Assembly: GCA_009921175.1 (NCBI GenBank)
Contig: RFYP01000002.1
Span: 1 to 64,000 of the forward strand
Origin: Flavobacteriia bacterium
Lineage (GTDB): Bacteria; Bacteroidota; Bacteroidia; Flavobacteriales; Flavobacteriaceae
DNA: 64,000 nucleotides
Direction: 5' to 3'
In this document: piece by piece, positions 949 through 11,548 of the stretch
Position numbering within the stretch: position 1 is the first letter of the stretch
How the letters are laid out: each line of letters opens with the position of its first letter
The notes under the pieces: generated by a model
Told to the model about the DNA's origin: nothing
Database searches by the model: none
What the model saw: only the letters and a program-made list of their open reading frames with translations
Made by a program: the position numbers and the translations under genes

Positions 949-1683
949 ATGGAAGCCATAACCATTTACGGTATTCACGCCATTTTAGAAGCGATTAATC
1001 ACGACAAACCCATCGAAAAGGTCTGGTTATTGAAAGGGGTAAAAAATCCCCAATTTGACCGACTGCTTAACGTCTTACAGGACCAGCATATTTCAATCAG
1101 TTTTGTCCCCGAAGAGCGACTGCAACGCTTTGAGGCCAAAAACCACCAAGGGGCAGTTGCACGGATAGCCCCGGTAAAGACCCATGCGCTTGAACCCCTT
1201 ATAGAACAAGTACTTACCCAGACCACTTCCCCACTGTTTGTATTGTTGGACGGCATTACCGATGCCCGAAATTTTGGGGCCATCCTCCGGTCTGCTGCCG
1301 CAACGGGGGTCCATGGTGTGATCATTCCCCAAAGTGGCAGTGCCCCGATCAATGGGGATGCTATTAAAACTTCGGCAGGAGCCTTGTTTAAAGTCCCCAT
1401 CGCCCGTGTAGCGCACCTTAAAGATGCGATTATGTTGCTGCACGCCTATGACATCAAAACCGTAGGCATCACCGAAAAAGCCGAAAAGCTCGTTTACCAA
1501 GAAGATTTTTCCGGAGCACTCGCCCTAGTCATGGGTGCCGAAGACAAGGGCATCTCCAAAGGAGTTTACGCATTATTACAACAGCAAACCAAACTACCTA
1601 TGGTCGCTGATATGGACTCACTCAATGTTTCGGTGGCCTGTGCGGTTAGCCTCTATGAGGTTGTCCGTCAACGCTTGGGCTAG
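949..1683 (+). CDS. rlmB: 23S rRNA (guanosine-2'-O-)-methyltransferase, RlmB/TrmH (SpoU) family
   Basis: IYGIHAILEAI, LDGITDARNFGAILRSAAATGVHGVI, VMGAEDKGIS, LNVSVACAVSLYEVVRQR motifs of SPOUT/TrmH enzymes. Confidence 0.9.
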   Translation: MEAITIYGIHAILEAINHDKPIEKVWLLKGVKNPQFDRLLNVLQDQHISISFVPEERLQRFEAKNHQGAVARIAPVKTHALEPLIEQVLTQTTSPLFVLLDGITDARNFGAILRSAAATGVHGVIIPQSGSAPINGDAIKTSAGALFKVPIARVAHLKDAIMLLHAYDIKTVGITEKAEKLVYQEDFSGALALVMGAEDKGISKGVYALLQQQTKLPMVADMDSLNVSVACAVSLYEVVRQRLG

Positions 1684-1709: not shown

Positions 1710-2759
1710 ATGGAAACTACCCCTCTTGCTGCACGTGTGCGTCCTGAAAGCTTGGACGAATATATCGGTCAGGAACATCTGGTAGGGCACAAAGGTAGCC
1801 TGCGCAAGGTACTCGATTTGGGGCAGTTGCATTCCATGATTCTTTGGGGACCTCCGGGGACCGGAAAAACGACCCTGGCTCATTTATTGGCCAAGGTGCA
1901 GCAACGCCCTTTTTATGAACTTTCGGCCATCCATGCCGGGGTCAAAGAAGTACGCGAGGTCATTGAAAAAGCGAAAAATGCCCTAAAAAAAGACCGTTAC
2001 CTCCAAGAACTTGATATTCGGCTGGAAGAAGTCGAAGCGATACTTCAGCTTTCGGGAGGAGATGCCCGTAAATTACTCTCCATTCTCGAATTGGTCGTGC
2101 AGAGCATGAGCAGCGAAAAAGTCATTCGATTGACCAATGCCCGTGTACAAGAATTGATCGAAACCAATCGGGTGCTTTTTGACAAAAACGGCGAATTTCA
2201 TTACGATATCATTTCGGCTTTTATAAAATCCCTACGGGGGAGTGACCCCCATGCGGCCGTCTACTGGCTTGCACGAATGTTAAACGCCGGGGAAGACATC
2301 AAATTTATCGCCCGCAGGATGTTGATTTTGGCCAGTGAAGATATCGGAAATGCCAATCCCAATGCCTTGTTGATGGCCAAAACTACCTTTGATGCCGTGG
2401 CCATTGTGGGGATGCCCGAGGCCCGCATTATTTTAAGTCAGTGCGCGACCTATCTTGCCAGTTCACCCAAAAGCAACGCCGCTTATCTAGCCATTAACAA
2501 AGCACAAGCAACCGTTGACAAAACGGGAAATTTATCCGTGCCCTTACACCTGCGTAACGCACCTACAGCCTTGATGAAAGAGTTGGATTATGGTAAAAAC
2601 TATCTTTATCCCCACGATTACCCCAACCACAGTGTAGCGCAAGAATATATGCCCGACGAACTGCAGGGAACCCCTTTTTACATACCGGCTTCAAATCCTG
2701 CAGAACTGCGTTTACGTGACTACCTTAAAAATATTTGGGGGGATAAATATCCGCTTTAA
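1710..2759 (+). CDS. rarA: Replication-associated recombination protein A (RarA/MgsA) AAA+ ATPase with internal in-frame gap
   Basis: LAARVRPESLDEYIGQEHLVG, Walker A GPPGTGKTT, ELSAIHAGVKEVREVIEKA, SGGDARKLLSILELVV and the C-terminal RarA domain; Walker B/sensor-1 stretch absent (see findings). Confidence 0.9.
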   Translation: METTPLAARVRPESLDEYIGQEHLVGHKGSLRKVLDLGQLHSMILWGPPGTGKTTLAHLLAKVQQRPFYELSAIHAGVKEVREVIEKAKNALKKDRYLQELDIRLEEVEAILQLSGGDARKLLSILELVVQSMSSEKVIRLTNARVQELIETNRVLFDKNGEFHYDIISAFIKSLRGSDPHAAVYWLARMLNAGEDIKFIARRMLILASEDIGNANPNALLMAKTTFDAVAIVGMPEARIILSQCATYLASSPKSNAAYLAINKAQATVDKTGNLSVPLHLRNAPTALMKELDYGKNYLYPHDYPNHSVAQEYMPDELQGTPFYIPASNPAELRLRDYLKNIWGDKYPL

Positions 2760-4255
2760 CGACGTAGCCAAAAGAAAGGAGTAAACAAAATCAGAACCGT
2801 AAACAGCTCCAAACGACCCAACAACATCAAAAACGAAGACCACCACAACCCAATGGTGGGCATAGCGGTATAGGTCTGATCCGGGCCAAAACTCCCCAAA
2901 GCCGGACCCACATTACCCAAGGTCGCTGCAGCCACTCCCAGGGCTGACTGAAAGTCTAGACCCATTAAGGCAAAACCCAACGACCCGAGGATAAAGGAAA
3001 GCATATAGAGGATAAAAAATCCGAGAATATTGTAAACAATCCCCTCGTTGACGATTTTTTTATTGTAGCGGGTTTGCAAGATGGCATTGGGATGCAAGGC
3101 ACGCTTAAATTCCAAAAAGCCATTTTTTATCATCAATAGATGCCGTACAATTTTAACACCTCCCGCAGTCGAACCTGCAGAACCCCCCAAAAACATCAAA
3201 CCAAACATTATCAGCGTGAGTAGGGGAAAAATACTCACCATATCGGCTGTCGCAAAACCCGTTGTGGTGATGATGGCCACCACCTGAAACAAAGTATGCC
3301 GAAAAGTACTTTCTATAGGACCTAATACCTGTGGATACGTAAAACCCCTGCCTAAAGAAAGGTCAGCAAAAAGGATAATCGAAGCAGTAATCAGTGTAAA
3401 AGCAGCGATAAATCCCAAATAGGTTTTAAATTCTTGGTCTTTGAGTATGGATTGCACCTTTCCGGTAAACGCAAAATAGCTCAACACAAAATTGGTCCCA
3501 GCTATAACCATAAAAAAGATGATGATATACTGCACCAAAGGGGTGTCGTTCCAATAGGCCACACTAGCGTTTTTGGTCGAAAATCCACCGGTTGACAAGG
3601 TACTCATCGCATGGTTTACCGCATCAAACAGAGACATCCCTGCCAAATGAAGGAGCAAGGTCTCGGCAATGGTATAGCCAAAATATATCAGCCATAAGCG
3701 TTTGGCCGTATCGGTAATTCGTGGGTGTAGCTTGTCACTATTGGGCCCGGGAGCCTCAGCACTAAACAACTGCATCCCTCCGATACCCAACAACGGCAAT
3801 ACGGCGATGGCCAAAACAATAATTCCCATCCCCCCAATCCAATGGGTCATGCTTCGCCAAAAAAGAATGCTTTGGGGCAATGCCTCTAAGTCTTGAATGA
3901 CCGATGCCCCGGTGGTGGTATATCCGGATAATGTTTCAAAAAAGGCGGCAGAAACCGAAGGCAAGGTTTGGGTAATTAAAAAGGGTAACATACCCGTTAA
4001 GGTCATGGCTATCCAGCCAAAAACCACGATAAAATAACCCTCTCTTTTTTGGATTTGCGGGGCTTCTTCGGTACGGGTCAGCAACATGGCCGTTCCTCCT
4101 AGGCCCAAAACCAAAAAGGCCGATAAGGTCATCGGATACAGCGCACCGTCGCGGGTCAGCATGCTCACCAACACGGCAAACAACATCAACCCGCCGTTGA
4201 ACACAAGCAAAACGCCCAACAATTGCCCGATTACCTTAAAGTTTAATTTGTTCAT
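2756..4255 (-). CDS. trkH: TrkH family potassium uptake protein
   Basis: Selectivity-filter-like segments (LSGYTTTGAS, STLSTGGFSTKN, TTTGFATADM, TLGNVGPALGSFGP) and multi-pass hydrophobic profile. Confidence 0.93.
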   Translation of the reverse strand: MNKLNFKVIGQLLGVLLVFNGGLMLFAVLVSMLTRDGALYPMTLSAFLVLGLGGTAMLLTRTEEAPQIQKREGYFIVVFGWIAMTLTGMLPFLITQTLPSVSAAFFETLSGYTTTGASVIQDLEALPQSILFWRSMTHWIGGMGIIVLAIAVLPLLGIGGMQLFSAEAPGPNSDKLHPRITDTAKRLWLIYFGYTIAETLLLHLAGMSLFDAVNHAMSTLSTGGFSTKNASVAYWNDTPLVQYIIIFFMVIAGTNFVLSYFAFTGKVQSILKDQEFKTYLGFIAAFTLITASIILFADLSLGRGFTYPQVLGPIESTFRHTLFQVVAIITTTGFATADMVSIFPLLTLIMFGLMFLGGSAGSTAGGVKIVRHLLMIKNGFLEFKRALHPNAILQTRYNKKIVNEGIVYNILGFFILYMLSFILGSLGFALMGLDFQSALGVAAATLGNVGPALGSFGPDQTYTAMPTIGLWWSSFLMLLGRLELFTVLILFTPFFWLRR

Positions 4256-10477: not shown

Positions 10478-11548
10478 ATGAAAACGACCCTTCATGCTGG
10501 TGTACTTACCGGCAAACAAGTCCAAGAAACTTTTGCCTTGGCCAAACAAAAATCTTTTGCACTTCCTGCTGTAAACGTTACGGGAAGCAACACCATCAAT
10601 GCCGTACTGGAAACCGCTGCAGAACTCAACAGCCCAGTAATTATCCAATTTTCCAATGGAGGGGCGCAATTCAATGCCGGTAAAGGGTTGACCAACGAAA
10701 ATGAAAAAGCCGCCATAGCCGGGGCGGTCGCCGGGGCCAAACACATCCACCAATTGGCCGAGGCCTACGGTGCCCGTGTGATCTTGCATACCGACCACTG
10801 TGCCAAAAAATTACTCCCCTGGATCGATGGTTTGCTTGAGGCCAGTGAAACCCATTTTGCCCAAACAGGCAAACCTTTGTTTAGTTCACACATGATTGAC
10901 CTCTCTGAAGAACCACTGGAAGAGAATATTGCCATCTGTAAAGCATACTTAAAGCGAATGTCCAAAATGGGCATGACCCTAGAAATCGAACTCGGTGTGA
11001 CCGGGGGCGAAGAAGACGGAGTTGACAATACCGATGTCGATCAGTCCAAACTCTACACTCAGCCTGAAGAAGTAGCCTACGCCTATGCTGAACTGAGTGA
11101 AGTTAGTGCACAATTTACCATAGCTGCTGCATTTGGTAATGTGCATGGGGTGTACAAACCCGGAAATGTGGTCCTAACGCCCAAAATTTTAAAAAATTCA
11201 CAAGAATACATCAGCCAAAAATTTGGGGTAGCACCCAATACCGTGGACTTTGTGTTTCATGGAGGTTCCGGTTCTTCGATAGAAGAAATTCGGGAATCCA
11301 TTGGCTATGGGGTCATCAAGATGAATATTGATACCGACCTTCAATTTGCTTTAACCGAGGGAATTCGCGACTATATGACCGCACAAATCGACTACCTTAA
11401 AACCCAAATCGGAAACCCCGAGGGGAGTGAGGTACCCAACAAAAAGCACTACGATCCTCGCAAATGGCTCCGCTTGGGAGAGGAAACTTTTAAAGCTCGA
11501 CTAAAAAAAGCTTTTGAAGATTTAAATAATGTCAATACTTTAGACTAA
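10478..11548 (+). CDS. fbaA: Class II fructose-bisphosphate aldolase
   Basis: VILHTDHCAKK, AAAFGNVHGVYKPGNV, DFVFHGGSGSS metal/substrate motifs. Confidence 0.95.
   Translation: MKTTLHAGVLTGKQVQETFALAKQKSFALPAVNVTGSNTINAVLETAAELNSPVIIQFSNGGAQFNAGKGLTNENEKAAIAGAVAGAKHIHQLAEAYGARVILHTDHCAKKLLPWIDGLLEASETHFAQTGKPLFSSHMIDLSEEPLEENIAICKAYLKRMSKMGMTLEIELGVTGGEEDGVDNTDVDQSKLYTQPEEVAYAYAELSEVSAQFTIAAAFGNVHGVYKPGNVVLTPKILKNSQEYISQKFGVAPNTVDFVFHGGSGSSIEEIRESIGYGVIKMNIDTDLQFALTEGIRDYMTAQIDYLKTQIGNPEGSEVPNKKHYDPRKWLRLGEETFKARLKKAFEDLNNVNTLD

Follow-up and report, generated by a model that had tools for sequence, protein, structure and literature searches.

An in-frame gap in the rarA gene of a Flavobacteriaceae draft genome is probably one of a class of assembly deletions

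Proteins of the RarA/MgsA/Mgs1/WRNIP1 group are AAA+ ATPases, and the best solved relative of the protein described here is the RarA of E. coli (PDB 3PVS, E=9e-79). The hydrolysis-dead E. coli allele rarA K63R was found to reproduce, when ruvB is also mutated, the phenotypes of a strain deleted for rarA (PMC8735627).

The window analyzed here is a stretch of 64,000 nucleotides from one contig of a Flavobacteriaceae draft genome (G000), and the ORF at positions 1710-2759 of the forward strand, which translates without interruption into 349 aa, is the rarA/mgsA gene of this genome. Its product resembles the described group in having Walker A, a sensor-2 lid, a complete MgsA_C domain and the gene order of the genus, and it shows 77% identity with the same-genus orthologue at the positions that align. 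In contrast to the group, the protein as assembled is without 78 residues that hold Walker B, sensor 1 and an arginine-finger motif. Given a real deletion, the protein would share with E. coli K63R the inability to hydrolyze ATP; however, the fold is preserved in K63R, a point change, whereas the window protein is without three of its five core strands.

The rarA locus and its missing block

The features of the locus are listed below by their coordinates in the window.

949..1683, + strand: rlmB (23S rRNA methyltransferase), upstream of rarA; synteny shared with G002 and G001
1710..2759, + strand: rarA/mgsA, internally deleted; 349 aa plus stop; Pfam AAA, AAA_assoc_2 and MgsA_C
1710..1979, + strand: AAA+ N-terminal part that is kept (residues 1-90), with Walker A; 79% identity to G002 residues 1-90
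1979..1980, + strand: deletion junction, with 234 nt (78 codons) absent here and present in G002, from the alignment with G002
1980..2237, + strand: AAA+ lid that is kept, with the sensor-2 region GGDARKLL (AAA_assoc_2); Pfam match at residues 100-176
2238..2756, + strand: MgsA_C C-terminal (tetramerisation) domain, intact; Pfam residues 177-343, profile 1-167 of 167
2756..4255, - strand: TrkH-type potassium transporter-like membrane protein, downstream of rarA; named from its sequence, without a profile; 85% identity in G002

The order of the neighbors of rarA is the same in G001 and G002, both of the same genus, and orthology is thus supported by gene order. The lid matched AAA_assoc_2 (PF16193) with 79.9 bits against a cut-off of 34.3, and the C-terminal domain matched MgsA_C (PF12002) with 236.8 bits over the whole profile.

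The reference for the missing block was the same-genus orthologue L004 (= G002:C15), a 427-aa RarA from a Flavobacteriaceae MAG. In the alignment to G002, the window RarA is without exactly 78 residues between N90 and A91 (bases 1979/1980). The Walker A P-loop (GPPGTGKTT) is present at residues 47-55, and farther on EKAKN is joined directly to ALKKDRYLQELDIRLEE. The lost block contains Walker B (DEIHR), sensor 1 (TTENP) and, at the arginine-finger position, an LLSR motif that is conserved among related RarA proteins, and all three are absent from the window RarA as assembled.

A previous reading of this DNA from its letters (the sequence-only reading) had described a Walker A that runs straight on with the Walker B and sensor 1 stretch missing, which is borne out by the alignment to G002, and had put the loss at about 70-80 residues, in agreement with the 78 measured. 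Its description of a frame and a C-terminal domain that are intact through to the stop agrees with the 349-aa ORF and the complete MgsA_C profile, and the junction is A-rich, as it said; the loss of the LLSR motif was not mentioned there. A direct repeat that could explain the slippage favored by the sequence-only reading was sought across the junction within the window, and none was found.

RarA in relatives and the predicted effect of the gap

A rarA match was present in 141 of 151 Flavobacteriaceae genomes, and the open frames listed for this family were 424-532 aa long, except for the window gene and one fragment of 130 aa. Both DEIHR and TENP were found in all 79 of the related loci that were read (417-519 aa). 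No short rarA was found among the matches listed for 248 genomes of the phylum, the weakest matches lying outside that listing. Because the motifs of the block occur in 79 of 79 loci and no other RarA listed is short in this way, the absence of the block from the window RarA is not due to chance.

The missing block is present in both other genomes of the genus. The sequence-only reading had named a full Walker B in sister genomes as evidence against a natural deletion, and this is what both G001 and G002 have. The rarA of G001 has intact Walker B and sensor 1, and the loss at its C-terminal end is only apparent, coinciding with a run of unknown bases (G001:C59:73079-73176) that is probably a scaffold gap. 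A known class of short RarA proteins was also considered: the window protein scored 192 bits against the NCBIfam family PRK14700 (300-aa RarA), the cut-off of which is 570, and no member of a known short class was found among the family or phylum matches listed.

The remainder of the protein is, as judged by its residues, free of decay and without acceleration on the window lineage. With G001 as the outgroup, there were 15 lineage-unique amino-acid changes in the window RarA and 24 in that of G002, and among 112 columns with conservation in 95% or more of the relatives, the window RarA departed at 4 and the intact sister from G002 at 3. An old deletion under relaxed selection is rejected, there being no relaxation in the rest of the gene. 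Therefore, either the deletion happened very recently or it is not real, and with dS near saturation the event can be dated only loosely.

The effect of the gap on the fold was evaluated with models of the window RarA and of its intact sister, each built on 30 sequences. The sister model has five core strands (residues 43-46, 68-72, 101-105, 128-133 and 150-153) and a mean pLDDT of 82. Three of these five β strands are missing by sequence from the window RarA, and the two that are left over are not formed in its model, in which residues 1-100 have block pLDDT values of about 49-71; the C-terminal domain is largely confident, and it is in the C-terminal region that Foldseek matches of the model were best. 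According to the models, a protein of this sequence would lack ATPase activity and would probably not bind nucleotide properly either. The sequence-only reading, which had proposed a protein that binds nucleotide and is dead in hydrolysis, was too mild on this point if the deletion is real, because the deletion takes away three of the five core strands and the model leaves the strands of the P-loop region unformed. Because the K63R allele behaves like a rarA deletion in the ruvB background, the model and the literature together suggest that a real deletion would be expected to give a functional null.

Deletions elsewhere in the same genome

An earlier scan was limited to the intact ORFs of the genome's own assembly and was therefore blind to deletions that break the frame; it yielded only rarA and ActD, the latter with an in-frame deletion of 39 codons. 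We then have the reverse scan, in which intact G002 genes were the queries against the window's own genome and deletions of at least 14 nt were counted. It gave eight deletions in 251 genes (14, 16, 22, 55, 91, 117, 121-124 and 234 nt), as follows.

rarA, window contig, junction 1979/1980: 234 nt, in frame; the longest of the eight
gyrB (DNA gyrase B), G000:C6 (locus L136), ~3000-3010: 14 nt, frameshift
malate dehydrogenase, adjoining gyrB, G000:C6 (L136), ~828, on a 3.8-kb contig: 22 nt, gene split
ActD of alternative complex III, G000:C36 (locus L146), 10506-10934: 117 nt, 39 aa lost in frame
multihaem cytochrome, 5 kb from ActD, G000:C36 (L146), ~15790: 121-124 nt, frameshift
amidohydrolase, C3: 91 nt, frame-breaking
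porV (PorV, type IX secretion system), G000:C2:66864-66870 (locus L102, 2864-2870): 55 nt, frame-breaking
acetyltransferase-like gene, C1: 16 nt, frame-breaking; alignment less clear

The reverse scan changed the conclusion, because the scan of intact ORFs, in which rarA looked nearly alone, misses frame-breaking deletions. The reciprocal scan of 254 genes found no deletions in G002, and the comparison of 8 in 251 with 0 in 254 gives a Fisher p=0.004. Two of the eight, rarA and ActD, are in frame, relative to a chance expectation of 1/3 (the probability of 2 or fewer is 0.47), the number being small. The porV deletion lies shortly after the end of the window, on the same contig; the sequence that it removes is present in both G001 and G002, and G001 as the outgroup agrees with a deletion. 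The gyrB gene is single-copy in its genome, the only other gyrB-like match being 38% identical and probably parE.

Left out of the count were 1-nt breaks near ORF starts, upstream of likely start codons, and one 1-nt break near a gene end on contig C248. A gene at G000:C47:18406-19377 (locus L202) is without about 59 codons relative to G002, in two or three in-frame gaps, and it is not among the eight because none of the gaps reaches the 25 codons that the final scan required. Contigs C35, C37, C124 and C159 of the same genome read as N throughout, being either masked or withheld.

These lesions resemble deletion errors of draft genomes in being clean, indifferent to frame, spread over several genes that include indispensable ones, and absent from the sister assembly; unlike typical homopolymer errors, they are 14-234 nt long.

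Origin and meaning of the gap

Gyrase B is indispensable, and the frameshift in gyrB is a lesion of the same kind in a gene that cannot be lost. Because a living cell with all of these lesions is not credible, we attribute the deletions as a class to amplification, reads or assembly, and because a cell could hardly live with the gyrB frameshift, an assembly artefact is the simplest explanation for the class. The kind and rate of the lesions suggest that rarA shares its origin with the seven other deletions (14-124 nt), and we infer that the cells are not at fault, the error having arisen in amplification, reads or assembly. Our preferred explanation, with a probability of about 0.87, is that the rarA gap belongs to a class of sequence or assembly deletions of this draft genome and is no biological feature. 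The living organism would then most likely have a full-length RarA of the ordinary kind, about 427 aa long, with AAA+ ATPase, lid and tetramerisation domain, of which 234 nt would have been lost during the building of the contig. The main uncertainty is whether rarA belongs to the class, because one of the eight deletions could in principle be natural. Like a natural deletion that a cell tolerates, that of rarA preserves the frame; its junction showed no assembly repeat that would account for a collapse; and none of the other seven is as long, the joint cause being deduced. The genome is also small, and rarA is often absent from small genomes of the family, so that natural loss is plausible in itself.

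The sequence-only reading had offered both a natural deletion and an assembly deletion, and of these it is the latter that gains from the sister genomes with the block and from the gyrB-type lesions, and the former that is disfavored. It is unlikely that a recent in-frame deletion inactivated rarA as an early step toward loss of the gene in a small-genome lineage, leaving a protein with lid and tetramerisation domain and no working ATPase core that would act as a null, perhaps as a dominant-negative subunit. The junction is clean, in frame and open to the stop, and a null would be tolerable, as with E. coli K63R (PMC8735627). Moreover, rarA is missing from 8 of 17 family genomes of at most 1.9 Mb as opposed to 2 of 134 larger ones (Fisher p=1.8e-7), with sizes that are rounded and several genomes that are incomplete, which suggests that rarA was lost repeatedly with genome reduction in the Flavobacteriaceae. 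One of these eight small genomes without rarA is 99% complete, and a literature search for loss of rarA during genome reduction found nothing relevant. However, comparable lesions without frame preference occur in the same assembly in genes that are not plausibly dispensable, and the rest of rarA is conserved, so the event would have to be very recent. We consider it doubtful that the protein is an ATPase-dead RarA that keeps its tetramerisation domain and marks a stage on the way to losing the gene in marine Flavobacteriaceae with small genomes. Far less probable is a functional RarA without ATPase that is maintained by selection, for example as a structural or regulatory subunit whose lid and C-terminal domain do the work. 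In its favor, the rest of the protein shows purifying selection, and nothing is missing from the C-terminal domain, whose model has fair to high confidence; however, such a form is unseen in any relative listed, the predicted relaxation of a useless P-loop half does not appear, and the modelled N-terminal half loses strands and confidence relative to the intact sister. The least credible reading is that the block is encoded elsewhere, through a split gene, an insertion or a second intact rarA. The genome is 89% complete, which leaves some room for this, but searches that used the block and the gene as queries against the window's own genome, including the check for a second intact rarA that the sequence-only reading had advised, found neither a second rarA nor a copy of the block in the part that is assembled; the matches (38-43% identity) were all distant AAA+ proteins, probably RuvB and DnaX.

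The preferred reading, an assembly deletion, carries a caution for draft genomes, in which in-frame deletions pass the test of an intact ORF and mimic variants with a lost domain, whereas their frame-breaking siblings are visible only by genome-wide comparison with a sister genome. As biology, the rarA gap is probably unimportant, RarA being most likely normal in the organism. A real deletion, on the other hand, would illustrate the disappearance of a conserved repair ATPase during genome reduction.
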